Below, one piece after another: positions 1 to 62,768 of a DNA stretch of 64,000 nt. The first letter of the stretch is position 1. Each line of letters opens with the position of its first letter. Below the pieces are notes generated by a model. It saw nothing but the letters and a program-made list of their open reading frames with translations, did no database searches and was not told where the DNA came from. The translations under genes and the position numbers were made by a program. Origin of the DNA: Physcomitrium patens (lineage: Eukaryota; Streptophyta; Bryopsida; Funariales; Funariaceae); assembly GCF_000002425.4 (NCBI RefSeq), contig NC_037254.1, positions 15,288,712-15,352,711 of the forward strand, written 5' to 3'.

Positions 1-502
1 GGACTTTTATTAATATTCAGTTACGTCAAATATTGGGAGCAACGACCAACTCCTGTGCAAATACTGAGTGGCCAAGTTCAGTCACCCCGTTACATTCAGC
101 CAGGGCAAACTGAAATCCTCCATTCGATTCCAATAACGGGAGTCAGCATGAAGAGAAAGGACCAATTCACACGACGGGTGAGCCTGGTTCGAAGAGCCAA
201 TTGGATCCAATTTCAAGAATCCAATCTAGGTCTTCTTACCCAATGTGAGACCTGCATTAGTCGGGCAACCCAATGCAGTCTAATTACGGGAAAATCCAGG
301 TCTTACTACGGGCCTCAGCCAGTCTGACGCGAAGGACCAGTTTGATCCAATTACGGGAACATCCAAGTTATTACGGGCATCTTACCCAATATGAGACCTG
401 CGTTGGTCATGCAACCCAATGCAGTCTAATTACGAGAAAATCCAGGTCTTACTATAGGCCTCAGTCAGTTTGACGCGAAGGACCAATTTGATCCAATTAC
501 GG
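1..502 (+). repeat. LTR-A, left fragment (element-1 family LTR, cut by window start)
   Basis: This is the 5' part of a Ty3/gypsy LTR of the TGTCGT...ACGACA family, beginning roughly 40 bases into the LTR. It carries the same CCAAT/ATTGG-rich imperfect repeats as the complete LTRs at 503, 7768, 9949, 17369 and 27716. It is interrupted at 502 by element 1 and resumes at 9138. The short apparent ORFs inside it are LTR sequence and not genes. Confidence 0.85.
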
Positions 503-1872: not shown

Positions 1873-1876
1873 TAAG

Positions 1877-1894
1877 TGGTGAACCCGACGTGAA
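1877..1894 (+). promoter_or_regulatory. tRNA-type primer-binding site of element 1
   Basis: TGGTGAACCCGACGTGAA begins four bases after the LTR end. The leading TGG is what a tRNA 3' CCA would pair with. I cannot name the tRNA with certainty. Chromoviruses A and B in this window do not have such a site. Confidence 0.7.
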
Positions 1895-1943
1895 AGCTTG
1901 AGGTGGAAGGTATTGGATTTCGGTTGATTTTATCTTTATTTTT

Positions 1944-4241
1944 ATGGAAAACGAAAATAAAAATTTTGAAGGATTTTTGGGAGAAGTTTCTGGTGGGGAG
2001 TCTTCTAAAGGACAAGGTATGCACATGGATCCGTCTATTGCTAGTTTGTTTCAAGCCTTCTCATTGTCAATGCAGCAACAGTAAAGCAATGATCGAAAAG
2101 AAGCTTTGGCAACCAAAGCATTGCAAGCAGTGGTCAATAAAATTGATCAATTTGATGGGAGGAATATTTCAAGGTATTTAAGATGTTATGTTCGTGAAAT
2201 GGAATTAAATCGGGTTTCTGAGAAGAAAATGGTTGCACTATTTGGACTTGCCACGATACCGGAGATAAAGGACCACATTACATCAATTACGGATCGTTGT
2301 GGGAATTCATGGGTGGATTTTTCACATGCATTGAAAGACGAATATTTCTTGGAAGATGCTGATCGCGTTACTAAGAAGCTGTTTCTGGGATGGATTGAAC
2401 CGCCCAATAAGAATTTGCAAGCAACAGAGCTACTAAAGGAATTTGAGAGGCAGTACTCTCAATTATCGAAGGTAGAAAAATTGACATTGGAGCCGAACAA
2501 AGTTGATCTATTTCTTCGAGCTACTGATGGAGAATTGCAAGAGAAATTAGAACCCCTTCTTGAAGAAAGGAGGAAGGATAGGAGTAATATTTCGAAACAA
2601 GTACAAGCACCCAAAGCTCCAGTACGTACAACACCACCAACAATGCCTACAGTTCAACCTTCGACATCCTTGTCAAAGAAAACAGATATGGGGATGGAAG
2701 AAATTATACAAGGAATGCGAGATCTTCAAATCAAATTGGCAAGACTTGAAGAGAATACTTCTATAAACAATTCGAATAATGTTTCAAAACAAGGATATGT
2801 ACAAAGATGCATTTGGTGTGATGATGCTTCACACACTAGAAAAGATTGCAATGAATTTAATAATATGATACGGCAGGGAATTATTTGCTGGAAAGATGAG
2901 AAGATAGCATTGAAAGATAGGGAGGATCTTCTTCAAACCAATTTTGGCAAAGGAGGAATGAGAGCATTGGTTCAAGATTACTTAAAAGGGTATGAAACAG
3001 TAGCACGAGAAAGTGCAAGTTATGGTGCTAGAGTAGATGATGAAATTGGTGGAAGTACGGAAACTAGTGAGTTTTGGGCTTCTGCCGTTTCTACAATGCA
3101 AGAAGAGAAATTACCTCGAGAAGCGTTATTGAGAACTGCAGCTACAATACGAGGAAGAACAGGTTGGGAGGATCCCGTTGAGTCTCTTTCAGTTCATGCA
3201 TATATTGCTAAGAGCCAACATGAAGCTTTGATGGAAGAAAAAAGACGAGGAAATTTTGATGATACTAGAGAAGGAAATTCTTTTAAGAGGCAAACTCGAG
3301 GAGACAAGGCTCGGGAGGCAACTTCACAAGAATTGCCTGTAAAGGATACCTCAGCATCATTGGGAGAGAAAACAACGGAGACAAAAGATAAGGGCAAATC
3401 AATTGCTTATAAGCTACTTTCTGACATTGAAGCGGCAACAAATTTGAAAGGGGTGTTGGAAGAACGTATATTAAACGCTAAGGTGGAGTTCACATTGAAA
3501 GAAGTTTTAGGAATTGCAAAGAAGGAGTTTCATGATGTTATCATTGACAGCATTAAGCGAAAGAGGCAATTAATGGGCAAAACTGGAATGAGTCATGCTA
3601 TTGATGCAAGAATATATAAAGATGAAGAAGAGGTTGATATTGGTTACAAGCAACCAACAAATGAAAAGAATGGGTATAATCAGCGAGTACGTTTCGAAGA
3701 TTCTAGTGACAAGGAAATAGAAACTTTGAGCCATTATACTCGAAAGCATTGGGCAAGGGCAACTACTGAGCTATTGGTGAAGGTAGGAGATATAGAAGAA
3801 CCAATAGTTGCTTTGGTGGATCATGGTTCTGAAATAAATCTCATGTCTAAAGATCTTTATAAGAAGCAAAAATGGCCAATTGATATGGAACATGGATGGG
3901 CAATACGAGCAGCTAATAACACACGAGGCGAATTATATGGAGCTTGTCCAGATGTCAAAATTCGGATTGGGGATGTTGCGACGGAGCAACATTTCTTCGT
4001 TCAAGATACAACGTCTTATCCGTTGATTTTAGGACAACCTTATATCACGGCAACACGGATGGAAACAAAGGTACTTGACGATGGTTCTTCTTATGCAAGG
4101 GTATGTAGCGAGGATGGGAGGAAAGCTGTACAATTTCTAACAGTACCTCCTAACCATGAACGGAATCGAGATAGGTTGAGGGAGAAACCATTGCCAAAGA
4201 TTGTTGAAGGATTTAACGATTTTGGGGAGGTACCACTATAA
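1944..4241 (+). CDS. gag-protease polyprotein of element 1, with in-frame TAA at 2082
   Basis: Encodes the capsid/nucleocapsid protein and aspartic protease of a Ty3/gypsy element. I place the start at the ATG at 1944 (MENENKNF...) because that frame runs into the gag body and is conserved in element 2. After 46 codons it meets TAA at 2082-2084, then stays open for 719 codons. A CCHC knuckle, CIWCDDASHTRKDC, is at about residue 289. The protease motif ALVDHGSEINLM is at about residue 626 (Asp-His-Gly-Ser instead of the usual Asp-Ser/Thr-Gly), followed by PLILGQPYI. Compared with element 2 it lacks 25 in-frame codons near 2560. Pol follows in the -1 frame, overlapping at 4217-4241. If the TAA is not bypassed, the product would start downstream. 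Confidence 0.85.
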
Positions 4242-7200
4242 AGCGAGATTATGGAGGTACAAAAGAGGAGGTACTCTCGCGAGATGAAGGTGCCTTTGAT
4301 GCGAGTTTTATTGGTATATTGGAGAATGGAAATATTATGTATAAGAAAGTTGATGATTTTAAAAGAAAAGAAAGAAAAAGATTATATGATATTGAAGGAC
4401 AGTTACGCAAGATAGGTACATTACAAGATGATGAGAGGATTTTAGGTGTTTATGAAGAAAATGGGCTGGAAGATTCATTGGAATTGATTACATCTATTGG
4501 GTTAGGGGATAATGATAAGATTGTTGAGATTCATTCAAGAGAGGTTTATACCGTACTTGAATCTTTTCAAGCACGAGAAGTCACTGTAGAGACGAGATAT
4601 GAAACGGCAAATAAGAAGGTAAAGCCTATTGCTGGACCATTACCAGAAGATTCTAAAGAACAAATGGGAGAAGCATCAAAAGAAGCAAGTTTAAGAGATC
4701 CAATGAGTATTGGACATCAGATTACTAAAGAGACTTTTGAAGAATTGAAGATTGGTTCTGATGGTTCTTTATTGGCGGAGGAAATTACTTGCTTCAAAAA
4801 GATGTTGGCTAAACAAGGTAGATCGTTTGCCTTCGAATCTCATGAAATTGGGTGTGTGGATCCAAATATTGTAACACCTATGGTTATCTTCACTGTACCG
4901 CATGTACCTTGGAATCTAAGACCGATTCCAGTACCGAGGGCACATTTACCTAAATTAGTTGCACTATTAAAAGAAAAGATAAAGATGAAAATATTAGAAC
5001 CTTCATTTGCGCCGTATTCTAGTCGATGGTTTACGGTACCTAAGAAGAATGGGTCACTGCGGTTTATTCAAGATATGCAGTCGGTGAATGCTTTAACTGT
5101 CGGGAATGCAGGAATTGGACCTATTGTGGATGAATTTGCTGAGGCGTTTGCTGGAAGGGCGATCTATTCAATGGGTGATTTGTATTCAGGTTATGATCAA
5201 TTTCAACTTGCCGAAGGAAGTAGAGATATGACAACGATGCGGACACTGCTTGGATTGGTTAGAATGTGCACTCTTCCTCAAGGCGCGACCAACTCAGTTG
5301 CGCATATGATGAATGGGATGAATAAGGTATTGAGAGATTTTATCCCGGGAATGACTATGCCTTTTCTGGATGATGTTCGTATAAAGGGGTGCAGAGAAGG
5401 AGACAAGGATGAAACTTTAGATACGAGGGGGTGTCGCAGATATGTTGTTGATCATATACAAGATTGTGAAAAGATTTTAACTCGGCTTGGAGAAGTTCAT
5501 CTTACATTATCGGGTATGAAGTCCGTATTTGGAGTGCGAGAGGTTGTAATTGTTGGACATTTATGTGGATCTTACGGAAGAAAACCAGATCCGACTAAAG
5601 TTGATGCAATTGGAAGGATGAAAGAGGATTGTGGTTCTTTAACAGAGGTTCACAGGTTTTTGGGTGCATGTGTATTTTATCGAATCTGGATCCCTCATTT
5701 TGCTCACATAGCGGATCCATTATATGAACTGTTACGCAAGGGTTACCGATTTGAATGGGAAGAAAGGCATATTCAGGCAATGCAAAGATTGAAGAAATTA
5801 TTGATGTCACCTCCAATATTGAGGAAGGTTGATTATAAGTGCAATAGACCAGTGATTCTTACTGTAGACGCTAGTCCAATTGCCGTTGGATGGGCTGTGG
5901 GTCAAGATGATTCGAATGGGAGTAGATTTGCAGTTCGATTTGGGGCTAAAGTTTTAAGTATTCGTCAGCGTGCATATTCGCAAGTCAAAAGAGAACTTTG
6001 GGAAGTCGTTTCGGCTATAAAAGCTGAAAGGGATTATTTGATTGGGGCAGTAGTAGTAATTGAAACAGATTGCTTGCCATTGCTTGGAATGATTACTAAC
6101 TGTTCAACGCCAGATATTGCAATGTTGAGATGGATTGCTTATATTAAGTCACTAAATCCAGAATTTAAGCATATCACTGGAAAGGACAATTTAGTAGCAG
6201 ACATGCTATCTCGAGTAAGATACGAGAGGGAGGACGAAATGGTTGAAGACATTGATGATGTCGGATTGAAATTCTATTCAATATCAAATCTCAAAAGAGA
6301 AGACAAGCTATTTCTTGAAGAATCTTATGAAGGAGAATTATTGGATATTGGTCATTATTTGAATACCTTGTCTAAGCAGGGGAATTGGTCTATAGAAAAA
6401 TTCAAACAAATAAGAAAAAAAGCATATGGATTTTTACTTCGAGATGGATTCTTATGGAAGAGACCGAAGAAAGGAATTGGGATGCCACAACGAGTGATAG
6501 GCAATAGGGAAGAAAAACTAAAATTATTAAAGGAGTTTCATGATAGTTTATGGGCAGGGCATAGAGGAATCTGGGCTACTTTTGCTAAACTCAAGGAACG
6601 ATATTGGTGGAAAAATATGTATGGAGATGTGCTCTCATTTAAAATCTGTTAATCGTATTCTAATATCCGACATCGAGATGGTCTTCATCCTACGTATCCT
6701 CTGGCTATTCATTTTAAATGGGTTGTTGATTTGGTTATTATGCCGGTTGGGTTATGGCAGATGAGATATTTGGTTTTAGCTCGTGAAGATTTATCAAATC
6801 AAGTAGAAGGAAGAGCATTGAGGATAAAATCTACAGAGGGGATTTGTAGGTTTTTGCTTGAAGATGTCATTTGCCGCTACGGATGCATAGAAAAAATCAC
6901 TGCAGATCGTGGAGAATTAAATGCACAAGAAGCTCGTAAGTTCTTTGAAAGATGTGGAGTTAAATTGTCACTGACTACTGCTTATAATCCAAAAGGAAAT
7001 GCAAAAAGCGAACGCGGTCACCCACCGATTGTGAAAGCATTAGTTAAAGCTTGTAATGGGAAGGTTAAAGAGTGGCCACGGCTTTTGTCATTTGCATTAT
7101 GGGCTGATCGAACAACACATAGTTTGGTGACAGGATATATGCCAGTAGAACTTATGACAGATCGAAAACCAATTATGCCGATTGAAGAAAAGGTACTTAC

Positions 7201-7705
7201 TTGGAGTATGCTACCATGGGAAGATGGATTCACAAGAGAAGAACTTCTGGCTATTAGGATTCGACAATTGGAGCAAAGAACAGAAGATGTCCAGATAGCA
7301 TTGGAAAGGTTAAAAAGAGCAAGGTTACAAAACAAGGCGCGATTCGATAAGCAACATCGATTGAGACCAAAAGCAATCGAGGAAGGTGACTGGGTACTTG
7401 TTTATGACAATAGTCTGGATAATCAACATAGTACTTTGCGGAAATTTTCAAAACGTTGGTTTGGACCATATGTTGTAACAACTGTTCATAATAATGCGAC
7501 TTACTCATTACGGGAGTTAGATGGTACAAAATTGAAAATACCAATTGCAGGGAAGAGAGTAAAAATATTTAAACGAAGACACGCAGAGATGAATATGGAA
7601 GACCTTAATGAAGGTACAGAGATTCCGCAGCAAGAAGATGAAAGTGATATGGATAATGAAGGTAACGAAGACGAACTGGACAAAGACGTAGGGGATATAT
7701 TCTGA
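4217..7705 (+). CDS. pol polyprotein of element 1 (RT, RNase H, integrase), in-frame TAA at 6650
   Basis: The frame opens at 4217, in -1 phase to gag-protease. Reverse transcriptase covers about 4900-5400, with MGDLYSGYDQ and the catalytic FLDD at about 5363-5374 in place of the common YxDD. RNase H follows at about 5850-6220 (TVDASPIAVGWAVG, HITGKDNLVADMLSR). The integrase zinc domain starts with HDSLWAGHRG at 6539, but the distal part reads DVLSFKIC then TAA (6650-6652), so one Cys of the HHCC finger is missing. The same frame continues through the integrase core: Asp in VVDLV (about 6728), Asp in ITADRG, and Glu in KSERGH, with 34 residues between the last two. A C-terminal GPYVV-type region follows and the frame ends at TGA 7705. 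No chromodomain is evident. Confidence 0.88.
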
Positions 7706-7750
7706 ATCAAACAGAAATTGGGTAAATTGGTGCATACTGGAGGATGCACA

Positions 7751-7767
7751 GGTTCAGAGGGGGTGGA
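7751..7767 (+). promoter_or_regulatory. Polypurine tract of element 1
   Basis: A purine-rich run (GGTTCAGAGGGGGTGGA) lies directly before the 3' LTR at 7768, the expected plus-strand primer position. The same sequence precedes the 3' LTR of element 2 at 17352-17368. Confidence 0.8.
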
Positions 7768-9137
7768 TGTCGTGTTGTAACACGAGTATACAGTGAAAAT
7801 AAAAAGAAAGGGGAATTTTATTAATATTCAGTTACCTCGAATATTGAGAGCATCGACCAACTCCAGTACAAATACTAAGTGGTCAGGTTCAGTGACTCCG
7901 TTACAGTCAGCCGGGGCATACTGAAATGCCCCATTCGATTCCAATAACGGGAGTCAGCAGGAAGAGAAGGACCAATTCACACGATGGATTCGAGGAGCCA
8001 ATTGGATCCAATTTCGATAATCCAATCCGGGTCCTCTTACCCAATATGAGACCTGTATTGGTGGGGCAACCCAATGTAGTCTAGTTACGGAAAATCCAGG
8101 TCTTACTACGGGACTTAGCCAATCTGACGCGAGGACCAATTTGACCCAATTACGGGAACATCCAGGTTATTACAGGCATCTTTACCAATATAGGACCTGA
8201 ATTGGTCGGGCGACTCAATGTGGTCTCGATTACGGGGTTCGATTCTGTTTCAGGCTGTCCTGTTCTCTGTGCCGTCTCAGGAAATGTTGTTTTCGGTAAA
8301 TGGATTTCTTAAAGGTAAAAACGGAAGAGAAAGCTTGGCGGCGAGAGCCAATTTCGAATCCAAGTTGAGGTGAGAGCCAATTTCAGAACCAAGCTTGAGC
8401 TGGGAGCCAATTCCGGATCTAAGACGGAAGATTGAAGAAATTCAGAGGATAAGGTTAGGGGGGATATAGTTTTGGAGGGGTGTGGGTTTTTTTTTGAGGT
8501 GAAATCGGGGGGGGAAGCGAGTTTTTCAAGCTTCTGCAAGGTTACCAGTTTGGTTTTTTTTATTGGAGGTTTTTGAAGATCAAGGGAATTAGAGAGAGGG
8601 GCTTCATGCTTCGGGTCGGGGAAGGAAAGACATAGAATTTGGATTTTTCTTCTTCGTACAGTTTTGGGGAAGACTGAGGCAATTGCTGCTGAAGTTAGTG
8701 TTGTAATGGTGAATCGGGATTTTTAAATGAAGTGGGTATGAATACTCTTGACTGTTTTGTGAAATCGAGTTACGTCTGTGATTGAAGGATTAAAAGGGTG
8801 TCTATAGGATTGAGTATGCGGAGTGAATGAAATTTATTGGGTTAATCTAATAAGACAGTCAGTGGATACAAGATCGTAAGTACAATGCAGTATTGAAGGT
8901 TAACAGTTTGGGTTGTACGGGGTTCTCTGTAACGTCTAGAGACCTACCGACTGGGGCAAAAAAGACTTCGACAAGCAGTCGAAGAGCACCCGTATAGATT
9001 TACGGTACATTGTTGCAGTCATTTATATTCCAGCAGTCAAAAACTGATAGATTGCTTGACTATCGGCGAATCTCCATACTACCTTCTACAGCCAGACGCC
9101 CGGCGCGTTCTCGAGCAGGAAAGCACGTAATACGACA
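7768..9137 (+). repeat. 3' LTR of element 1
   Basis: 1370 bp, the same length as the 5' LTR at 503-1872 and about 98 percent identical by eye. Ends with ACGACA at 9137 and is followed by ACGG, the putative target-site duplicate. Confidence 0.93.
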
Positions 9138-9948
9138 ACGGAAAAATCCAGGTCTTATCACGGGCATCTTACCCAATATGAAACCTGAATTGGTCAGGCG
9201 ACTCAATGTGGACCCGAGTACGGGGTTTCGATTCTGTTTCAGGCTGTCCTATTCTCTGTGCCATTTCAAGGAACGTTGTTTTCGGTAAATGGATCTCTTA
9301 AAGGTAAAAACGGAGGAGAAAGCTCTGACGGCGGGAGCCAATTTCGGATCCAAGACGGAAGATTGAAGAAATTCAAAGGATAAGGTTAGGGGGAGAAGAA
9401 GTTTTTTTGGAGAGGTTTTTTTTGAAGATTAGGGGGGGAGAGCTAGCTTCATGCTTCGGGGTTGGAGAAGAAAAGACAGAGAATTGGGTTTTTCTTCTTC
9501 ATAGGGTTTAGGGAAGACTGAGGCAATCGTTGCTCAAGTCAGTGTTATAATGGTGAATCGGGATTTTTAATGAAGTGAGTGTAATCACTCTTGACTGTTT
9601 TGTGAAATCGGAGTTACGTCTGTGATTGGAGAATTAAAAGGGTGTCTATAGGATTGAGTATGCAGAGTGAATGAAATTTTTTGGGTTAATCTAACAAGAC
9701 AGTCAGTGGATACAAGATCGTAAGTACAAAGCGGTATCGAAGATTAATAGTTTCGGTTGTTCGGGGTTCTCTGTAACGTTTAGAGACCTACCAGCCGGGA
9801 CAAAAAGGACTTCGGCGAGCAGTCGAAGGGGCATCCGTATAGATTTATGGTGTATTCTTGTAGTCGTTTATATTCTAACAGTCAAAAACTGATAGACTAC
9901 TTGACTACTGGTAAATCTCCATACTACCTACTACAGCCAGACGCTCGG
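9138..9948 (+). repeat. LTR-A, right fragment
   Basis: Continues the LTR interrupted at 502, beginning ACGGAAAAATCCAGG and running to CAGACGCTCGG. It stops about 35 bases short of the expected ...ACGACA terminus, exactly where the 5' LTR of element 2 begins (9949). The missing terminal piece is not found immediately after element 2. Confidence 0.82.
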
Positions 9949-17368: not shown

Positions 17369-18659
17369 TGTCGTGTTGTAACATGAGTATACCGTGAAAA
17401 TATAAAGAAAGAGGACTTTTATTAATGTTCAGTTACCTCAAATATTGAGAGCAACGACCAATTCTAGTGCAAATACTGGGAGGCCAGGGTCAGTCACCCC
17501 GTTACAGTCAACCGGGGCATACTGAAATGCTCCGTTTGATTCCAATATCGGGAGTCAGCAGAAAGGGAAAGGACCAATTCACACGACAGGTGAGCCTGGT
17601 TCGAAGAGCCAATTGGATCTAATTTCAAGAATCCAATCCGGGTCCTCTTATCCAATATGAGACCAAAATTGGTCGGGCAATCCAATACATTCTAATTAGA
17701 GGAGAATCCAGGTCTTACTACAGGCCTCAGCCAATCTGACGCAAAGGACCAATTTGATCCAATTATGAGAACATCTGAATCTTACTATTGGATTCTTTCG
17801 CAATATGAGACCTGAATTGGTCGTGCGACTCAATGTGGTTCCAATTACGGGCTCTGTTTCTGATTCAGGCTGTTTCGTCCTTTGTGCCGTTCCAGGAACG
17901 TCCTTTCGGTAAAAGGATTTCTTAAAGGTAAAAATGGAAGAGAAAGCTCTGACGGCGAGAGCTAGTTTTGGATCTAAGCTTTGATGGTGGGAGCCAATTT
18001 TAGATCTAAGCTCTGACGGTGGGAGCTAATTCCGGATCCAAGACGGAAGATTGAAGAAATTCAGAGGACAAGGTTAGGGGAGAGAATAAATTTTGGGGGG
18101 GTTTTTTTGAAGGATCGGGAGAGAGTTAGCTTCATGCTTTGGGTGAAAAGAAAAGACAGAGAATTGGGTTTTTTTTTCTTCATAGGGTTTGAGAAGACTG
18201 AGGCAATCGTTGCTGAAGTCAGTGTTGTAATGGTGAATCGGGATTTTTAATGAAGTGGGTTTGATTACTCTTGACTCTTTTGTAAAATTGACTTACGTCT
18301 GTGATGATGAATTAAAAGGGTGTCTATAGGATTGAATATGCGGAGTGAATGAAATTTATTGGGTTAATCTAACAAGACAGTCAGTGGATACAAGATCGTA
18401 AGTACAAAGCAGTATTGAAGGTTAACAGTTTGGGTTGTACGGGGTTCTCTGTAACATCTAGAGACCTACCGGCTGGGACAAAAAGGACTTCGACAAGCAG
18501 TCGAAGAGCACCCGTATAGATTTACGGTACATTGTTGCAGTCGTTTATATTCCAGCAGTCAAAAACTGATAGACTGCTTGACTATCGGCGAATCTCCATA
18601 CTACCTTCTACAGCCAGACGCCAGGCGCATTCTCGAGCAGGAAAGCACGTAATACGACA
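17369..18659 (+). repeat. 3' LTR of element 2, possibly chimeric
   Basis: 1291 bp, TGTCGT...ACGACA. The first several hundred bases resemble LTR-A and the 5' LTR of element 2. The last roughly 270 bases read like the younger LTRs at 503 and 27716 (for example GCACCCGTATAGATTTACGG and GTACATTGTTGCAG). It abuts chromovirus A pol at 18660. Confidence 0.85.
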
Positions 18660-20117
18660 ATGTGCAAGTGGAGCTGTAACTTGAGAGAAGTCTTTGATGA
18701 AGATTCGATAGTAGTTGGTAAATTCTAAAAAATATTGGACATCTCTTACAATTTTTGGGATCTCCCAATCTATAATAGTTTGAACTTTCTTAGGATCCAT
18801 CATAAGTCCATCATTTGAAATGATGTAACCTAAGAAATTGACTTGAGTAGTGTGGTATACACACTTTTTTATCTTGGCATAGAGTCCCGCATCTCTTAAT
18901 TTTTGTAACACACGACAAACATGAAGTTCATGTTTTTTTGGATTCTTAGAATAGATTAAGATGTCATCTAGATAACTGACCACAAAATTGTCCAAAAAAT
19001 CTCAAAAAACATCATCCATTAGATGTTGAAAAGCTGTTGGGGCATTTATAAGTCCAAAAGGTATGACATTGTATTCAAAATATCCATACTTAATTCGAAA
19101 TGCAATCTTTTATTCATCTCCTTCTTTGATGCATATTAGATTGTATGCTCCTCGGAGATCTATTTTTGTATAGATCTTAGCTTGATTCAGCTGATCAAGA
19201 AGTCTAGATATTAAAGATAGTGGATACTTATTCTTGATGGTAATCTTGTTAAGTCCTCAACAATCAATACACATCCACAATGATCCATCTTTTTTCTTCA
19301 CAAATAGAATTGGAGATCCTGTCGGAGATTTAGAATGGCGTATGAAATTCTTGGCTAGATTTTCTTTAATATACTCCTTGAGTTTAGTCAACTCATTTTG
19401 TGATAAACTATAGATTGATCCGAATGACAGTTGTGCTCCTTCTTGAAGGTCAATTAAGCAATCATAGGGACGATGTTTCGAGAGTGTATCCACATTTTTT
19501 TTTTCAAATACATCTTGAAATTCTTGATATTGGCTTGGAATGCTACTTGAAGTCTTTTCACTAGTAGAAACACGTGTGGCATAAATAATATATGGTGATT
19601 CTTTCATAGCAGCATGCAAGAAAGCTTTTGTACCTATAAATACGGGTTTAATTGAATTGGACTTATGACTCTGTACTTGATTAATTACACTGTTAGTTAT
19701 ACTTTTAGAGAAAGTAAGAGTTCGAGAAATCCAATCTATTTGAGGGTTGTATTTTTCTAACCACAATAAACCTAAAATGACTAGATTAGAGGGAGATCTA
19801 ATGATATTAAATACTACAAAGCTATTATGACCATTGATTATTACATCTATAGGAAAGATTTTGTGAGTAATATTTTGAGAAGATAATGGACAACCATCTA
19901 TGACTTCTACATGAACAGATTTAGTTTTCTTTACTAAAGATATGTTATGTCTTGTAGTAATTTCTTCATCTAAGAAATACACTAAGGCTCCTGAATCTAA
20001 CAAGAAAGACGCTTCGTAATGTTTAGGTTCTAAAATAACATTTAGTGTAAAACAAAGAGAGGGCTCTAAGGAGAGAATATGACCTTTACTAGATGTTGTG
20101 TAAGGTTCCAACCACAC
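18660..20117 (-). pseudogene. Protease-reverse transcriptase of chromovirus A, broken
   Basis: Reads from 20117 leftwards. The protease motif FLLDSGALVYFLDEE is followed by the long connector and RT motifs: [29 protein letters not shown], then the catalytic VSYLDDILIYSKN at about 18970. Stops lie between the two open stretches 20117-19257 and 18995-18660 (for example the codon after CIDC at about 19257, and near 19005). It ends at DFSQVTAPLAH, where the element-1-family nest interrupts it. The homologous position in element B continues with LTRLTCKDKLEWG. Confidence 0.87.
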
Positions 20118-20129
20118 GGTCCTTATTGT

Positions 20130-21070
20130 AGCTACACAAACTCGTTTTTTGACATATTATCTTCTTTCATAGCCAAATTCCTCATTTTGTGGTTGCATCG
20201 TTTCTTTGGATAATGTTGAGTAGTGTGTTTTGGTTCTCCATAGTATAAATATAATCCTTCTTTACGATGACAAGTCTTTTCTTGCTCAGTACGAGGTTTG
20301 AAACGTACTATATCAATTTACATATCTTCTACTTCCGAATGTACGTGTTGAAGAGGTGTTGATATTGCCATTGAATTATAGTAATGTTGAGGTCCACTTG
20401 TACAGTTCTCAGATTGAAATTCAAAAAGGCAATTGTCACACTTCACCGCAAAGTCAACTACTTGACTCAATGTTTGAGGATCAGGTAAGTTGAATATTAA
20501 TTTTTTTACCTCATATTATAATCTATAGAGAAATTAGCTAATAAGTGCAGCATTATCTCACTTGATATCAGTTACAAGTTATCAAAATTGTGAAGCATAT
20601 AACGTTATTAATCAATTATCTTGTCGTAAAACATGGATCTTATTGGTTGCAACATGAATTGCATCATGTTCAAGATACATGGATTGAAACTCCACCAAAA
20701 AAGCCTCTAGATTATCCAATATTGGATCTTGTCGTTTAAGAAAAGCTAAAAACCATGATAGTACTGAACCTGAAAGAAGCATACCAATGAATCTAACTTG
20801 CGATCCTGGAGTTCGATAGCTTTGGGGTTGAAGTTCAATCACAAGTTGCACTTGATTGATAAATCCTTGAAATTTGGATGTGGTACCATCAAACTTCTCG
20901 GGTAGGGTAATTTTTGGTTCTCTAACACTGGAAGGGCGTTCTACTATAGGAAAAAGGATATGATTTGGTACAGTTGTTGAAGTAGCTTCAACCATTTCTA
21001 TATCTTCACTTCTTGCCAATCTTGTTGCTCCTTGTGATGGTAAATTGAGTTAATGCATCGCAAGCATTAA
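20130..21070 (-). pseudogene. gag of chromovirus A, broken
   Basis: The open part 21019-20612 encodes the capsid-like region (KITLPEKFDGTTSKFQGFIN, GSVLSWFLAFL), homologous to element B gag. Further left, near 20240, the nucleocapsid knuckle reads LYYGEPKHTTQHYPKK: two Cys positions have become Tyr, consistent with G-to-A change. Several stops interrupt the frame. Confidence 0.8.
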
Positions 21071-21224: not shown

Positions 21225-21252
21225 TTAGAAGAGGATAATCCGCAACTTCTAA
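21225..21252 (-). other. Leader hairpin of chromovirus A with GATAATCC core
   Basis: The perfect 7-base inverted repeat TTAGAAG / CTTCTAA encloses AGGATAATCCGCAA. A second GGGTAATCCAC follows at about 21279 with weaker flanking pairing. The same core recurs in the leader of element B. Confidence 0.6.
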
Positions 21253-21329
21253 TATGCTTATATCTTATCAAGAAAAAGGGGTAATCCACTCTTAATCAAG
21301 ATTAGACAAAGTTTTGATATTGTAGGTGT

Positions 21330-21340
21330 ACTCTTGTCAA
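21330..21340 (-). promoter_or_regulatory. Self-complementary primer-binding site of chromovirus A
   Basis: On the minus strand TTGACAAGAGT lies two bases inside the 5' LTR end. It pairs perfectly, 11 of 11, with the predicted start of the element's own transcript at 21528-21518. There is no TGG tRNA site. This matches the arrangement known for Tf1-type self-priming. Confidence 0.72.
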
Positions 21341-21342
21341 TC

Positions 21343-21660
21343 TGTCAAGGACAAGAACTCAATGAAAAAGCAATTCAGATAAGTGAGCCTTTAGACAAAT
21401 AAAGGTAAAAAAATATAAATAAACAAGTATGTATATTGAAAGAGAAACTGGAATGGCTATTGCCAAAAGATAAGAAAATTAGAGACCCTTGAAACTAGAC
21501 AAGAAGCAAGAAAAGAGTTGACAAGAGTGAAGAAGACTTCACTCTTGTCTCTATATATACTATCCAACTAGGAGCTATGTGGCGACAATCTATAGGACCT
21601 TCAATATGTGTTGACTTTGTAGGATACATGCCTTGATTTAGAAGGCAAGTTTTTCTATGT
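21343..21660 (-). repeat. 5' LTR of chromovirus A, proximal part
   Basis: Begins TGTCAAGGACAAG on the plus strand. Homologous to the LTR at 62286-62768 and to a degenerate copy near 37.8-38.2 kb. Contains TATATATA (21552-21559) and the 11-mer TTGACAAGAGT (21518-21528). Split at 21660 by LTR-D and continued at 23325-23571, where it ends with GACA. Confidence 0.8.
21518..21559 (-). promoter_or_regulatory. Predicted promoter and transcript start of chromovirus A
   Basis: The TATA box at 21552-21559 lies 31 bases upstream (minus sense) of position 21528. A transcript starting there would begin ACTCTTGTCAA, exactly complementary to the primer site at 21330-21340. Confidence 0.6.
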
Positions 21661-25014: not shown

Positions 25015-25509
25015 TGTCACGGACACAAAATACAGACTTGAAATCTAACAAGAAGTTCAAGAAGAAGTGGCAGAACTAGATTAAACAGATGAGTACAAGA
25101 ACAACACCAGAAAGGTGAGCTAGAACTCCAAGAGATGTGTTGTCGAGACTGAAGAACTCTTCAGCCTCGATCCTTATATATACTCCTACTTAGGAAGCTT
25201 CTCGAGCTACTTCTATTAATTAGGAAGCTTCTAGAAGGTTCCAGAGGCTTCTTTTCTAGAAGGTTCTAGAAACTTCTCGAGCTACTTCTATTAACTAGGA
25301 AGCTTCTAGAAAGTTCCAGGGGATTCCTTTCTAGAAGCTTCTAGAAACTTCTCTTCTAGAAGGTTCTAGAGACTTCTTTTCTAGAAGCTTCTAGAAACTT
25401 CTCTCTAAAAGGTTCCAGAGGCTTCTCTTCTAGAAGGTTCCAGAGGTTTGTTTTCTAGAAGGTTCTAGAAACTTCTCTCTAGAAAGTTCTAAGGAATATG
25501 TTCCTAACA
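25015..25509 (-). repeat. 3' LTR of chromovirus B
   Basis: 495 bp; minus-sense ends TGTTAGG...GTGACA. Contains the 11-mer at 25140-25150, TATATATA at 25175-25182 and the GAA/TTC pentamer array. It lacks one 25-base unit present in the other LTR. Confidence 0.93.
25190..25497 (-). promoter_or_regulatory. Heat-shock-element array in 3' LTR of B
   Basis: Dense alternating pentamers of the form TTCnnGAAnnTTCnnGAA, the consensus binding array for heat-shock factors, upstream in minus sense of the TATA box at 25175-25182. Some units are degenerate (CCAGAGG). See the matching array in the 5' LTR. Confidence 0.75.
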
Positions 25510-26056: not shown

Positions 26057-27711
26057 TCATTGATGAAACTCTTGTACCTTTTGTGGCGCATTCGCAAGAT
26101 TTTCAGCTGGCTCCCACATTCCCTCATTAATGTCATAGCCGCACCAATGAATAAGATATTCTAACTTTTCCCACCTTCGCCGTGAATCCAATACCTTTTC
26201 AACCTCGTATTCTTCGTGGTTCTTGATTTCAATACTAGGTGGCGGACATTGCACTCTTCCAGGAAAAGATGACTCTCGATAAGGTTCCAACAGAGAAACA
26301 TGAAAGACTGGATGTACCTTCATAGAAGCCGGTAACTCCAGCCGGTATGCCACTAGATTAATTTGCTTCTGGATGATAAATGGTCCCAATCTTCGATAGT
26401 CCAACTTATCACATGGTCGCTTGGTCTTGATATTTTGTGGAAGAAGCCAGGCTTTGTCTCCAACTTTGAAAGTAGGTGCTGGATTCCGAAATCTATCTGC
26501 AGACGTCTTATAGGATTCTTGAGTGGATTGTAATTGAAGCTTCAACATAGTTTGAAGCTCTGATAGTTGCTTCGCAAATCCTTCAGCTGCTGGATTGTTA
26601 TTTGTTGACGGACTCAATAAATCAAGCTTTGGATGATACCCATAGTTGGAAAAGAATGGTGTTTGTTGAGTCGACGCATGGAGGGTGTTATTATATGCAA
26701 ACTCGGCTAGCGGTAGATATGCAGTCCAATCGTCTTGCTGATAGTTGATGCTGCATCGTAAGTACTGCTCCAAGACTTGGTTCACCCGTTCCGTTTGGCC
26801 ATCAGTTTGAGGATGAAAAGCTGAAGAAAGCTTGATATCCACCTTCAATATCCCAAAGAGAGATCTCCAAAACTTTGACACGAACTGGGTACCTCGATCT
26901 GATATGATATCATCTGGTAGTCCATGATATCGATACACATTATCGAGAAAGAGTCTTGCTGTGACTTCACTGGATGATGTCTTCTTATAAGGAACAAAGT
27001 GTGCCATTTTTGTAAGCCGATCTACTACGACAAAGATGCTGTCAAATGAGTTTGATGATGGCAAGTCCGTGATGAAGTCCATAGAAATTGAAGACCATGG
27101 TCGACGTGGAATTGGCAATGGCTGTAGAAGTCCATAAGAGCGATGCCGAGGATTCTTAGATCTTGAACAGATGTCACAAGAGAGGACAAAATCTTTCACA
27201 TCCTTCCACATTTGGGGCCACCAAAAATCTCAGGAAATAAGCTCCAAGGTCTTGTTGAATCCAAAATATCCCGCAGCTAGAAAATCATGGCGAGATTGAA
27301 GAACTCGAAGTCGTGCTAGTCCTTTTGGAATATACAATCGCTCTTCAAAGTATAAAAGATCTTTCTCCACCTTGAACTTGTCGTCATTGGTACGTTACTT
27401 GATATCAATGGCTACTGAATCTTTAATGGTCATAGTACGTACCTGGTTTAGGAAGTCAGCATCAAATGATACAATAGTAGCACAAAGTTGAAATCTCTCT
27501 GGCTTCAATAACGTTGTACATTGTTGATCAAACGCTGCTTCTCCAGCCTTTGGTACAAGATACGATCTCCTTGATAAAGCATCGGATAGTCCTTGCTGCC
27601 TTCCAGGTCAATAAGTGATAACAAAATCGAATCTAGATAGCAACATATTCCACCGAGCTTGACACCGATTTAAGACTCGAGCCGTCATGAAATACTCCAA
27701 ATTCTTGTGAT
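26057..27711 (-). pseudogene. RNase H end, integrase and chromodomain of chromovirus B, with a few stops
   Basis: The segment starts at HKNLEYF (RNase H tail, about 27710), cut off from its N-terminal part by the solo LTR. The integrase zinc domain has HDFLAAGYFG, with Tyr where the second His is expected, and an intact SCDIC. The integrase core is clean in 27211-26057: MDFITDLP, SDRGTQFVS, FHPQTDGQTERVNQ, with 35 residues between the last Asp and Glu. GPF-type and HPVFHVSLLEPY motifs follow. The chromodomain is YEVEKVLDSRRRWEKLEYLI...WEPAENL at the C terminus. Stops occur at about 27611, 27400 and 27230 in the upstream part. Confidence 0.88.
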
Positions 27712-27715
27712 CCGT

Positions 27716-29047
27716 TGTCGTGTTGTAACACAAGTATACAGTGAAAATAAAAAGAAAGGGGAATTTTATTAATATTCAGTTACCTCGAATATTGGGAGCA
27801 TCGACCAACTCCAGTACAAATACTAAGTGGTCAGGTTCAGTGACTCCGTTACAGTCAGCCGGGGCATACTGAAATGCCCCGTTCGATTCCAATAACGAGA
27901 GTCAGCAGGAAGAGAAGGACCAATTCACATGACGGGTTCGAGGAGCCAATTGGATCCAATTTCGATAATCCAATCCGGGTCCTCTTACCCAATATGAGAC
28001 CTGTATTGGTGAGGCAACCCAATACAGTCTAGTTACGGGAAATCCAGGTCTTACTACGGGTCTTAGCCAATCTGACGCGAGGACCAATTTGACCCAATTA
28101 CGGGAACATCTAGGTTACTACGGGCATCTTTACCAATATAGGACCTGAATTGGTCGGGCGACTCAATGTGGTCCCGATTACGGGGTTCGATTCTGTTTCA
28201 GGCTGTCCTGTTCTCTGTGCCGTCTCAGGGAACGTTGTTTTCGGTAAATAGATTTCTTAAAGGCAAAAACGGAGGAGAAAGCTTGACGGCGAGAGCCAAT
28301 TTCGGATCCAAGCTTGAGGTGGGAGCCAATTCCGGATCTAAGACGGAAGATTGAAGAAATTCAGAGGATAAGGTTAGGTGGGATATAGTTTTGGAAAGTG
28401 GGTTTTTTTTTGAGGGAAATCGAGGGGGGAGCTAGTTTTCAAGTTTTTGCAAGGTTACCAGTTCGATTTTCATTGGAGGTTTTTTGAAGATCAGGGGAAT
28501 TAGAGAGAGGAGCTTCATGCTTCGGGTCGGGGAAGGAAAGACATAGAATTTGGATTTTTCTTCTTCGTAGAGTTTTGAGAAGATTGAGGCAATCGCTGCT
28601 GAAGTCAGTGTTGTAATGGTGAATCGGGATTTTTAAATGAAGTGGGTTTGAATACTCTTGACTGTTTTGTAAAATCGAGTTACGTCTGTGATTGAAGGAT
28701 TAAAGGGGTGTCTATAGGATTGAGTATGCGGAGTGAATGAAATTTATTGGGTTAATCTAACAAGACAGTCAGTGGATACAAGATCGTAAGTACAAAGGGG
28801 TATTGAAGATTAACAGTTTGGGTTGTTCGGGGTTCTCTGTAATGTCTAGAGACCTATCGGCTGGGACAAAAAGGACTTCGACAAGCAGTCGAAGAGCACC
28901 TGTATAGATTTACGGTACATTGTTGCAGTCGTTTATATTCCAGCAGTCAAAAACTGATAGACTGCGTGACTATCGGCGAATCTCCATACTACCTTCTACA
29001 GCCAGACGCTCGGCACGTTCTCGAGCAGGAAAGCACGTAATACGACA
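27716..29047 (+). mobile_element. Solo LTR of the element-1 family inserted in chromovirus B
   Basis: 1332 bp, TGTCGT...ACGACA, about as similar to the element 1 LTRs as those are to element 2. It is flanked by CCGT on both sides (27712-27715 and 29048-29051). It splits the RNase H codons VYT / DHKN of chromovirus B. No internal region remains, so it arose by LTR-LTR recombination. Confidence 0.92.
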
Positions 29048-29051
29048 CCGT

Positions 29052-30838
29052 ATATACGGTTACTGGATGTGCAGCTCCTTCAAGAAAGTGACGCCATTCT
29101 TTGAAAGAATCCACTATAGCAAGAAGTTCTTTATCATGGATCTCATAATTGATTTCAGCAGCAGAGAACTTCCGAGAATAGAATGCAACTAGATAGAGCT
29201 TCTTATCTTCACTCATTTGTGAAAGCACACCTCCCAAAGCAAAATCTGAAGTATCAGTTTCTAAATAGAAGGCCTTTGTAAAGTCTGGATGTACCAAAAT
29301 TGGAGCTGTAGTAAATGTTGTCTTCAAATCTTAAAATGCCTTCTTCGCCAAAGGTCCCCATTCCAACTTATCCTTGCATGTTAATCGAGTGAGAGGAGCA
29401 GCAACTTGAGAATAATTCTTGATGAAGATCTGATAGAAGTTAGCAAAACCAAGAAAGCATTGTACGTCTCTAACCGTCTTCGGAACCTCCCAAGACATGA
29501 TTGCTTCTACTTTCTTGGGGTCCATCTTCAAACCTTCTGTAGTTGCAATGAACTCCAAAAATTCCATCTCCGTCTGGTGAAATAAACACTTTTCTAATTT
29601 GGCATATAGTCCTCGCTTGCGTAGTTTCTCCAAGACCAAACAAACATGCTCCTCATGCTCTTCCTCATTTTTAGAGAATATTAGAATATCGTCCAAGTAG
29701 ATGACAACAAAATCGTCGAGGTGTTCTCGAAAGATGTCATTCATCATATGTTGAAAAACCGCTGGAGCATTGGTAAGACCAAAAGGCATGACATTATACT
29801 CGAAATGACCATACCTTGTACGGAATGCTGTCTTCCACTCATCTCCTTCCTTGATTCGTACGAGATTATAAGCTCCCCTTAGATCAATTTTTGTAAAGAT
29901 CTTAGCACGTCCAAGTTGTTCTAAGAGACTAGAAATCAAAGGTAATGGATGACGATTTTTCTTTGTTACCTTGTTGAGGCCTCGATAGTCCACACACATC
30001 CGTAATGATCCATCTTTCTTCTTCACAAATAAGATGGGTGCTCCAGTTGATGATTTTGAATGATGAATGAAGTTCTTGGCTAGATTCTCGTCAATGTACT
30101 TTCGTAACTTTGCTAACTTCGTTTCCGATAGATTGTAGATTGGGCCAAAAGGTGGTTGTGCTCCTTCTTGCAAGTCTATGGCACAATCATATGGTCGGTG
30201 TTCCGATAGCATGTCAGCGTTCTTCTTTTGAAACACGTCTTCAAAATCCTTATATTGCTCCGGTATACTTGCTGTTGAGATCTTCTCCTCGGTAGTTGGA
30301 GCCGCATAAATGACAAATGGAGTGCCTTCCTTAGATGATCTTATAAACGCTCTTGCTCCAATGAATAAGGATTTCTTTTTTCGAGGTTTTTTACTAGGTT
30401 TTTTCTTGGGTGGTTTTGTGGGAAAAGTCATCTTCCGCAACCTCCAATCTATCAATGGATTATGTTTTTCCAACCAAGATAGACCAAGAATAATAGGATT
30501 TGATGGGGTTCTAATAATATTAAAAATAATATGACTACTATGGTCTTTAAACGTTACTTCTATAGGTTTTGATTCATGGGTGATGCTACCAGACAATAAA
30601 GGTCGCCCATCTATGACCTCAACATGAACAGGTTTTGATTTTTGTACTAAAGGAATCTTATGACGCTTTGCAAATTCTTCGTCTAAAAAACAAGCAGATG
30701 CTCCTGAGTCTAGTAGTGCTAAGGTTCTCAGTTTTTGACGGCCGATAAACAGAGGGATTCTAAAACAAAGTGCAGGTTGGGCAGAAAGAAAGGAACCTGA
30801 TTGTTGTTGGGATATTTCATTGTCCAGCCGCACGGTTC
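29052..30838 (-). CDS. Protease-RT-RNase H of chromovirus B, interrupted
   Basis: Reading leftwards from 30833: protease ALLDSGASACFLDEE, connector, RT with [31 protein letters not shown], and the catalytic VVIYLDDILIF at about 29705. After a stop at 29331-29333, RNase H continues with FYLETDTSDFALGGVLSQ and INYEIHDKELLAIV, and ends at VYT where the solo LTR lies. The frame is shifted -1 relative to gag, near 30840. Apart from that stop, the RT part is intact for 500 codons. Confidence 0.9.
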
Positions 30839-31864
30839 CTACTGTGACTGGGCATCCTTGTTTTCCTGAAAAAATACTCCCCTAGTCTTGACTATGCCTC
30901 GATTTTGCTTTTTGGAGCAGTTTCCGACTATGTGGCCTTCTCCACCGCGATACAAGCATAAATTTTCTTCCATACCTCGCTTTTTTTCTTCTATAGTAAG
31001 AGATTTGATACGTACCGCATCAATTTGCATGTCTCCCACCTCTGAATGTGAATTCACACCGCTTGCCGACATAGTTGGAGCATGGCGAATTGTATGTTGT
31101 CTTGAGCGTTGGTCTTGGCGACATTGGAATAGGCGATTATCGCACTTCACAGCTTGGCTAATGGCTTCATTGAGCGTTCGTGGATCAAGAAGAGTTAACA
31201 GCAAATCCTTCACATCATCTCTTAAATCCCAATAGAATTGACTCATCAACGCTTCTTCATCCCAATTGATGTCGTATACTAATTGCCTGAAATCCGAAGC
31301 ATAGATTGATGTAGAACGCATCCCTTGTCGTAGCGACTGGATCTTTGTTGTAGCCCATCGAACCTTATCGTGTTCACCAAATCCTTCCGCAAATGCTTCC
31401 AAAAAGGTTTCGAAGTTGTTTAATATGGATGATCGTTTCTCAAACAAAGGAGCAAACCATGATAGAGCTTGTCTCATAAGTAAGGTTCCAACAAGCCCAA
31501 CACGTGACTCCTCCGTTAGATATCGTTCGGGCTGTAAAACTGTTATCAACCTGATTTGATTGACGAATCCTTGAAACTTAGAACGTGTTCCATCAAACTT
31601 ATCTGGAAGGCTAACTCGAGGCTCCTTATGTTATAGAACTAGTGGTTCTTGTCGAACCTGAGGTAAAGTTGTTTCTCCAAGTGCCAAAATTTGAGGCTGG
31701 TGTAGTTTAGATTGTGCTATCCCAGATACTCCATCATTATGAAGCCTTGCCACCACTCCTTCAATCTCTGCAGTTCTTTGTGATAACGTAGCGAGGGCAT
31801 TCATAATAGCATCTAACTTAGACTCCGAACTTTCTGTCATACTAATGTCTTGACCTCCGGCCAT
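30839..31864 (-). CDS. gag of chromovirus B, with one internal stop
   Basis: Starts at ATG 31864 (MAGGQDISMTESSESKLD), with a coiled-coil-like N-terminus. A TAA at about 31631 follows PLVL, and the frame continues with SLPDKFDGTRSKFQGFVNQI and the capsid region to 30839. The nucleocapsid knuckle reads CLYRGGEGHIVGNC: the second Cys is Arg. Pol follows in the -1 frame with almost no spacing. No canonical slippery heptamer is evident at the junction, so decay cannot be separated from a real frameshift site. Confidence 0.85.
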
Positions 31865-31907
31865 TCTAAAAGAAGGACAAAAATGACCCTATAAGAGGCA
31901 ATATTGG

Positions 31908-32096
31908 TTTATAGGAAGGTAATCCACAACCTATAAAACGCCTTAAGAATTTCAAGAAGAGGGGTAATCCACTCTCTCCAAGAAGAATAAGACTCCAATA
32001 TTGTAACAGAAGAAGTATCAATTTAGAGGAGGGTAATCCGCAACCTCTAAAAAATGCTAGTATACCTTCAAGTAGAGGGGTAATCCACACTCTACT
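31908..32096 (-). other. Leader hairpin cluster of chromovirus B with GGTAATCC cores
   Basis: Four copies of GGTAATCC followed by AC or GC. Three sit in near-perfect inverted repeats: TTTATAGG / CCTATAAA (31908-31937), TTTAGAGG / CCTCTAAA (32022-32051) and AGTAGAG / CTCTACT (32071-32096). The fourth, about 31956-31978, has a weaker AGAG / CTCT stem. The region lies between the primer site and the gag ATG, where packaging or dimerisation signals usually lie. Confidence 0.7.
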
Positions 32097-32131
32097 AAGA
32101 AAGAACTAGCTCTAATATCTCAAGTTAGTGT

Positions 32132-32142
32132 AGTCTCGACAA
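32132..32142 (-). promoter_or_regulatory. Self-complementary primer-binding site of chromovirus B
   Basis: Minus-strand TTGTCGAGACT lies two bases inside the 5' LTR end at 32145. It is the exact complement of the 11 bases predicted to begin the transcript (32280-32270). The following ACAC is shared with the site in element A. Confidence 0.78.
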
Positions 32143-32269
32143 ACTGTCACGGATACAAAATACAGACTTGAAATCTAACAAGAAGTTCAAGAAGAAGTGG
32201 CAGAACTAGATTAAACAGATGAGTACAAGAACAACACCAGAAAGGTGAGCTAGAACTCCAAGAGATGTG

Positions 32270-32312
32270 TTGTCGAGACTGAAGAACTCTTCAGCCTCGA
32301 TCCCTATATATA
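32270..32312 (-). promoter_or_regulatory. Core promoter and predicted 5' transcript end of chromovirus B
   Basis: TATATATA at 32305-32312 lies 32 bases upstream (minus sense) of 32280. A transcript from 32280 would start AGTCTCGACAA, the complement of the primer site. The same geometry is kept in the other LTR (25140-25182). Confidence 0.65.
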
Positions 32313-32319
32313 CTCCTAC

Positions 32320-32650
32320 TTAGGAAGCTTCTCGAGCTACTTCTATTAACTAGGAAGCTTCTAGAAGGTTCCAGAGGCTTCCTTTCTAGAAGGTTCTAGA
32401 AACTTCTCGAGCTACTTCTATTAACTAGGAAGCTTCTAGAAAGTTCCAGGGGATTCCTTTCTAGAAGCTTCTAGAAACTTCTCTTCTAGAAGGTTCCAGA
32501 GACTTCCTTTCTAGAAGCTTCTAGAAACTTCTCTCTAAAAGGTTCCAGAGGCTTCTCTTCTAGAAGGTTCCAGAGGCTTCTCTTCTAGAAGGTTCCAGAG
32601 GCTTGTTTTCTAGAAGGTTCTAGAAACTTCTCTCTAGAAAGTTCTAAGGA
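32320..32650 (-). promoter_or_regulatory. Heat-shock-element array in 5' LTR of B
   Basis: About 330 bases dominated by alternating GAA and TTC pentamers at 5-base steps. Four runs have at least five uninterrupted units (around 32383, 32458, 32511 and 32607), plus shorter runs. The array ends just upstream of the TATA box. Heat-shock factor trimers bind three such pentamers. Heat inducibility is inferred by analogy with ONSEN-type elements. Confidence 0.78.
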
Positions 32651-32664
32651 ATATGTCCCTAACA

Positions 32665-37799: not shown

Positions 37800-38750
37800 T
37801 AGTGAAATAATATTCTTATCAAATTATTAAAGGTATGAATCATAAACAATAAAAATTTCAATGCATTCTTATATCATTGATAAGAGTAAATATTTTTCAA
37901 AAAGTAATATAATATTAAAAATAAAATAACTATTGCTAAAGACAAGAAAACTAAAAACTTTTGAAACTAGACGAAGAACAAAAAAGATGATAATAAGAAT
38001 AAAGAAGGCTTTATTTTTACCTCCATATATACTGTCAAACTAAGAACTATGTAGCAACATCTTATAAGACCTCCTATATGTTTCCAACTTAAAAAATACA
38101 TATCTTACTTGTAAAATAAGTTTCTTACATATACACCACATAGTCAACTTTTATTATAAGTTGCCAATATGTGTGACATGTAGCCAATTTGGTGTTCAAG
38201 TTTTGTTAATCAAATATTTATTAAATTAGTAAAACCTTGGCACAATAAAATAAAAATTAAAGAATTATTACATCATATATAATAATTGTATTTGACTAGT
38301 CAGATGAAGATTAAGAGGACTAAAGATTAAAAAAAAATGAAGATCAAGATAGATGAAGTTTAATCTTAATGATAACTAAGATGGATGAAGTTTAATCTTG
38401 ATGAAGATTAAAATGGATGAAGATTAGTTTGGATGATAATTAAGATGGATGAAGTCAAATCTCGATGAAGATTAAAATAGATGAAGATTAGTTTGAATGA
38501 CAACTAAGATGGATGAAGATTTAATTAGAGAGAGATTAGGATATGAAGATATTTTAAAGACTTCCAATCCTCTCTTCTCTCAAACTCTTATGTGTGTTGT
38601 TAGTATTATTTATATTATTTGAAAAAAATTATATGAATATATAAAATTATAAGGACCAAAAAAGGCTTAAAAGGCCAATTTAAGGGGAATATATACTATT
38701 TATATTGATATATATATCTAATAATTATAATCTTTTGTATTGAAAAAAAA

Positions 38751-62285: not shown

Positions 62286-62768
62286 TGTCACTCAAAAGAA
62301 CAAGAAAGTAATTCAAAGATAATATGGTATTAAACTAGAATGGCTATTGCTAAAGACAAGAAGACTAGAAAGTCTTGAAATAAGACTAAAGACTAAAAAA
62401 GTATTGACAAGAGTGAAGAAGATTTTATTCTTGCCTCCATATAAACTTTCAACTAGAAACTATGTAGCATTGTCCTATAAGACCTCTAAAATGTGTTAAC
62501 TTTGTAAGAAATGTATCCAAACTTGCAAGGCAAGTTTTTTTATATGTATGCCACATAGTTATCTTATTCAGCAAGCTATCAATACATGATTAAGTTATTG
62601 ACCAAGTTTCTAATTTATTAATTAGCTAAAAATACATGTAAAGTTAAAGTAGCATCTATGAAGCTTCTAAGAAGTTTTTTCAAAAAATATTATGAAATAA
62701 ATTTATTTTTATTTACTTATACTTAATCATATAGATAAATATTAGAATAAATATATATGTCCATCACA
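62286..62768 (-). repeat. 3' LTR of chromovirus G
   Basis: Starts TGTCACTC (plus strand) and ends CATCACA. Close relative of the chromovirus A LTR, including TTGACAAGAGT at 62404-62414, the same 11-mer as in A, and CATATAAAC where A has its TATA box. Confidence 0.78.

Follow-up and report, generated by a model that had tools for sequence, protein, structure and literature searches.

Coupled primer and primer-binding-site sequences predict Tf1-like self-priming in two chromovirus families of the moss Physcomitrium patens

Two chromovirus families of Physcomitrium patens, here called A and B, very probably start minus-strand DNA synthesis as Tf1 of fission yeast does, with a primer taken from the start of their own transcript. 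Three observations lead to this reading: the families differ by three compensated changes between the putative primer and the primer-binding site (PBS), matched B pairs far outnumber swapped ones in the genome (1638 places vs 4), and the primer varies little among A copies (0.31% vs 3.14% for the rest of R-U5). Self-priming from the element's own transcript, as the original prediction proposed for B, is thus the best reading, a predicted mechanism supported by the coupling of the two sequences.

In the proposed mechanism, transcription would start some 32 nt downstream of the TATA box, at AGTCTCGACAA in B or ACTCTTGTCAA in A, and the first 11 nt of the transcript would fold back, presumably within the particle, onto the PBS that closely follows the 5' LTR. 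The element's own reverse transcriptase, through its RNase H, would then cut after nt 11, and the new 3' end would prime synthesis into U5. In Tf1, the self-primer is 11 nt long and RNase H cuts after nt 11. Because a used primer would be copied into the new PBS, the coupling of the two sites would itself be a trace of use.

Self-primed reverse transcription has been demonstrated in yeast, and in plants it has only been predicted, as far as we searched. A model moss with thousands of such PBS sites and two matched pair types makes the plant prediction checkable by ordinary 5'-end and cDNA mapping, and the coupled difference between A and B is natural covariation of the kind used to support RNA pairings. 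The new part is this covariation, found in nature between two families that share a genome, together with the genome-wide counts.

Element B and its primer/PBS pair

The features of both elements in the window (the whole 64,000-nt stretch of DNA that was analysed) are listed in Table 1. The two LTRs of B differ by 8 substitutions in 495 aligned positions and one 25-nt gap. The five-base flanks of the element, ATTAC and GTTAC, are alike at four of five positions and fit an LTR end at 32145, which puts the PBS 2 nt beyond the LTR and not, as originally predicted, two bases inside its boundary. An LTR of the unrelated family G (approximately 27713-29047) interrupts B between RNase H and integrase, and the window copy of B is therefore broken.

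Table 1. Positions of the features of chromoviruses A and B in the window
Feature	Position	Strand	Details
B 5' LTR	32145..32664	minus	520 nt, TGTTAG...GTGACA
B TATA box, 5' LTR	32305..32312	minus	TATATATA; 32 nt before primer start
B putative self-primer	32270..32280	minus	AGTCTCGACAA; predicted transcript start 32280, from TATA spacing
B PBS	32132..32142	minus	TTGTCGAGACT; 2-nt spacer GT after LTR
B leader, four hairpins	31900..32105	minus	GYGGATTACC loops; motif starts 32088, 32041, 31972, 31927
B gag part (Retrotrans_gag)	30839..31630	minus	
B protease and reverse transcriptase frame	29331..30881	minus	
B RNase H part	28989..29330	minus	cut off by nested LTR
B integrase with chromodomain	26057..27229	minus	
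B 3' LTR	25015..25509	minus	495 nt; purine-rich AAAGGAGGGGGTGA just before
B primer 11-mer, second copy, in 3' LTR	25140..25150	minus	
A putative self-primer	21518..21528	minus	ACTCTTGTCAA; 31 nt after TATATATA box
A PBS	21330..21340	minus	TTGACAAGAGT; 2-nt spacer GA after LTR end TGACA
A leader, two hairpins	21225..21310	minus	same loop motif; motif starts 21289, 21243
A coding remains (gag, protease, RT pieces)	18582..21049	minus	

The B PBS is the exact complement of the putative primer, and both lie where the original prediction had put them (minus strand, 32142-32132 and 32280-32270, respectively). The match is exactly 11 nt long, as had also been claimed: read directly from the sequence, the flanking pairs on both sides are mismatched. 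The predicted distance of 32 nt from the TATATATA box to the primer holds as well, with TATATA starting 32 and 30 nt ahead of the primer start.

The pair is also found by a scan that is blind to its sequence. We searched the window for exact 11-nt complements with arms 80-450 nt apart, the second arm being preceded by CA and two further nucleotides, which gave 17 rows; in three of these (B, A and an AT-rich one) TATA[AT]A lies at most 45 nt upstream. Applied to L001-L030, the scan gave three further rows other than the B pair, one of them with a TATA (L006, AT-rich).

Element A and its covariation with B

Element A has its own exact 11-nt primer/PBS pair at the same places as B, and the sequence of this pair is different. 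The primers of the two families differ at positions 2, 6 and 8, and in the two PBSs the three facing positions, and no others, differ, each with the complementary base; this covariation is a single comparison, A with B, and none is seen within the families. In the protein pieces compared, A and B are only 49-61% identical (gag 49% over 101 aa, protease to the start of RT 51% over 299 aa, RT 61% over 119 aa), and that both families are nevertheless paired supports self-priming.

The predicted A transcript start falls inside a 12-bp palindrome (ACAAGAGTGAAG-TCTT-CTTCACTCTTGT, 21521-21548, minus), which places a second PBS-like arm in U3 just ahead of the primer. There are also two A-like LTR remains in the window, at 62332-62543 (75% to A) and 37930-38081 (77% to A). 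The first of these keeps ACTCTTGTCAA at 62414-62404 with no PBS seen behind it, as fits a solo or 3' LTR.

Matched and swapped pairs in the genome

The exact B pair occurs at B spacing in 1638 places in the 470-Mb genome, vs four places for the B primer with the A PBS; since the spacing in A is longer (174-206 nt in the sampled copies), the swap count informs on B-like elements only. A pattern for the PBS junction (TGACANNTTGNCNAGANT), in which the three A/B-variable positions are free and the other eight PBS letters are fixed, occurs in 6493 places, vs four for the reversed pattern.

Individual junctions were compared in two ways. For each family, we took the best 30 of 40 listed matches, chosen by likeness and with the window's own copy included. 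In this selection the pair is exact in 26 of the 30 B junctions, the other four having one change each in R or the PBS, and in 25 of the 30 A junctions, with one mismatch in four and two mismatches in one. A less selected sample consisted of the first 60 of 100 TGACANNTTGNCNAGANT sites listed in genome order. Here R was located through the surrounding LTR with the 11-mer masked, which placed 59 of the 60 copies (L122 was dropped), and G.U was counted as a mismatch. Forty of the 59 are exact, 14 have one mismatch and five have two (exact/one/two: 20/9/4 for A and 20/5/1 for B). The R of one family is joined to the PBS of the other in none of the 59.

The mismatched pairs in this sample (19 of 59 copies, taken regardless of intactness) are mostly single transitions, and G.U pairs make up four of the mismatched cells, one each in L086, L115, L117 and L118. 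Some changes recur: in R, ATTCTTGTCAA is present in four copies (as G.U in three), and ACTCTTATCAA and AGTCTCAACAA in three each; in the PBS, TTGACAAGAAT is present in four, and TTGTCAAGAGT and TTGTCAAGACT in two each. Among the 59 copies, none of these recurrent variants has a compensating partner change within its family, and at places picked for an altered PBS, compensation was seen in 0 of 6 and 0 of 12. Uncompensated changes of this kind, mostly single transitions and some at CpG, are as decay would give in dead copies; the recurrent ones may instead be inherited subfamily changes.

Both of these picked sets began as candidates. An apparent third primer type (L034, with PBS TTGACGAGACT) was found at six places after TGACANN, L034 included, and was rejected: all six are changed A- or B-like copies with no matching R. 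Likewise, a PBS pattern that has C or G as its fourth base occurs in 12 places, all of them A-like copies, and R is kept as ACTCTTGTCAA in ten of the 12; eight of these copies have one mismatch (a G.U) and four have two, none compensated.

The primer is the least variable part of this region. Among 29 A copies (the window copy left out), 1 of 319 cells of the primer 11-mer (0.31%) is off the commonest base, compared with 5 of 319 (1.57%) for the PBS and 155 of 4929 (3.14%) for the rest of R-U5; because the copies were selected by likeness, it is the contrast between regions that counts and not the level. The 35 nt after the PBS (1.38% in the same copies) are conserved like the PBS itself.

RNA folding and the leader hairpins

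Most pairs of the central duplex have a probability above 0.5 in five of six folds. For B, the minimum-energy structure contains the 11-bp duplex when 161 or 241 nt are folded, whereas at 201 nt the duplex lies 0.9 kcal/mol above the minimum. For A, the probability of most pairs is near 1.0 at 209 nt and 0.93 at 249 nt, and falls to about 0.12 at 289 nt, where the duplex loses. Side helices like those of Tf1 do not exceed chance, the best crossing helix being matched by 26 of 500 shuffles for B and 201 of 500 for A.

Both leaders also contain candidate hairpins. The motif G[TC]GGATTA[CT]C occurs at six places in the window, all in the leaders of B (four) and A (two), and each time it falls in a loop closed by a stem of 6-8 bp. 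There are two kinds of stem. The second has compensated changes (TTTAGAGG/CCTCTAAA and TTTATAGG/CCTATAAA, and in genomic copies also TCTAAGGG/CTCTTGGA). Taken singly, the stems are weak, and are equalled by 38 to 211 of 2000 shuffles. Across the 60 sampled copies, pairing in stems of the first kind is poor, and of the second-kind stems of A one half lies outside the register used. An Rfam search of the window gave nothing at gathering scores. The hairpins are possibly a packaging signal. A wider scheme, which we consider doubtful, would have the primer rewrite the PBS in each round, so that both sites evolve together and new pairs can arise and sweep within a plant genome; the GYGGAUUAYC hairpins after the PBS would then be a second, undescribed RNA element that places or packages the self-primed RNA.

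Other explanations of the pairing

The two arms might make a hairpin with a role in RNA packaging, dimerisation or translation rather than in priming; their pairing would serve such a role just as well, and other hairpins are present in the leader. We regard this as quite unlikely. One arm occupies the place of a PBS, 2 nt beyond the LTR, where no TGG-type PBS is present; the second lies at the expected transcript start, and both are exactly 11 nt long in both families.

Binding of the PBS by a tRNA, or by a half tRNA left by cleavage in the anticodon stem, would make the likeness to the LTR start incidental. Among plant LTR elements, priming by tRNA is more common than any other mode, and priming by half tRNAs has precedents (PMC6317226). 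However, the B site lacks TGG, as the original prediction had it, and the first TGG comes only at nt 58 after the LTR end in B and at nt 55 in A, while G1, an unrelated element of the window, does have TGGTGAACCCGACGTG roughly 4 nt beyond its LTR, the end of which was placed by BLAST. Moreover, the three compensated changes between A and B track the LTR start and not a tRNA, and we hold priming by tRNA to be very improbable.

Chance complementarity is extremely unlikely: inverted repeats are many in LTRs, and 120 (B) and 258 (A) per million Markov-1 random 11-mers pair somewhere in 330 nt, but only 1 (B) and 3 (A) per million do so at the start site, a second family has a different pair, and matched and swapped pairs stand at 1638 vs 4 genome-wide. 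When 62,790 other 11-mers of the window are set in the PBS place, none pairs within 4 nt of the B start, and 34 pair somewhere in the 330 nt before the B PBS.

Relationship to the Tcn1 clade and to Tf1

Returning to self-priming as the preferred reading, it accords with the probable classification of the elements. By its sequence, B looks like a chromovirus of the Tcn1 clade, the plant branch of Tf1/sushi, and membership of that clade is most likely for B and, through its likeness to B, for A. The integrase of B (B only) ends in a Chromo domain (E 1.8e-14) that aligns to HP1 chromodomains, and its Y, W and Y, read by eye, stand at the aromatic-cage places. An aromatic cage is not exclusive to Tcn1, being present in 95% of Tcn1, 59% of Chlamyvir and 56% of Galadriel elements (PMC6317226). 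Among the 120 listed matches to the B integrase (8000 candidates scored), the sole one with an organism name is fungal (Absidia glauca, 48% over 100%), and no relatives were found in viral contigs. The host is a moss, as expected for Tcn1, and neither A nor B has a tRNA-type PBS, as predicted for that clade and as judged here by the absence of TGG. A TGG-type PBS next to the 5' LTR, the mark of the tRNA-primed Tekay, Reina, CRM and Galadriel elements, is absent from both.

Neumann et al. 2019 (PMC6317226) predict self-priming for 12% of plant elements, among them most Tcn1 chromoviruses and the TAR copia group, and find plant Tcn1 confined to mosses and club-mosses. The PpatensLTR elements of P. 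patens have been assigned to Tcn1 (PMC2864245), and PpatensLTR2 was included in the Tf1/sushi comparison of PMC10085805. For the Selaginella element SM-Tcn1, Novikova et al. 2010 (PMC2864245) report neither signs of tRNA priming nor of self-priming. The original prediction had held that there was no well-documented plant case. This stands for experiments, as far as searched, and fails for predictions, which are in print for Tcn1 of mosses and club-mosses and for TAR copia (PMC6317226); the novelty is accordingly much lower than was claimed. In the article passages searched on plant and moss self-priming, we found no printed moss primer/PBS pair and no experiment.

A and B resemble Tf1 of Schizosaccharomyces pombe in having the primer at the predicted 5' end of the RNA, a PBS adjoining the 5' LTR and, in B, a chromodomain integrase. 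They differ in that self-priming has been demonstrated for Tf1 (PMC4600332) and is predicted from sequence for A and B, and in that the "pretzel" RNA described for Tf1 has two side duplexes (PMC10085805) that are not clear in A and B. With the Tcn1 elements of mosses and club-mosses they share the host, the chromodomain type, a fungal-like integrase and predicted self-priming (PMC6317226, PMC2864245, PMC3350952); here there is probably no difference, the published prediction of self-priming being made by clade. The TAR copia elements (Houba, Osr-1) are plant LTR elements also predicted to be self-primed (PMC6317226), but belong to the copia superfamily.

Among the described families of P. patens, the TE islands are made up of RLG1, a gypsy family with a chromodomain; the RLG1 tree agrees less clearly with the plant phylogeny (PMC7466625). 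The terms "PBS" and "primer binding" have no occurrences in the main text of that paper.

Other features of the window

Alternating GAA and TTC boxes at 5-nt spacing are the pattern of heat-shock elements. The U3 of B (32281-32664, minus) contains nine runs of three to five such boxes, which are not independent because this U3 is made of tandem repeats; shuffled B U3 sequences have 0.005 runs on average and at most one. Positions 1-24000 and 33000-64000 of the window contain two runs in all, both strands counted, and the 172 nt of A U3 that were read contain none. In P. patens, RLG2 is reported to be induced by heat and ABA, and RLG1 to be repressed by heat (PMC7466625).

The Gypsy-type element G1 (500-9140, plus strand) has long open frames, LTRs at approximately 500-1872 and 7768-9140, and a TGG-type PBS, and is possibly of the Phygy kind; its LTR is also the one nested in B. 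Near 55.8-56.8 kb, the window contains a transaminase gene that matches a protein of Physcomitrium patens at 100% identity across 96% of the query.
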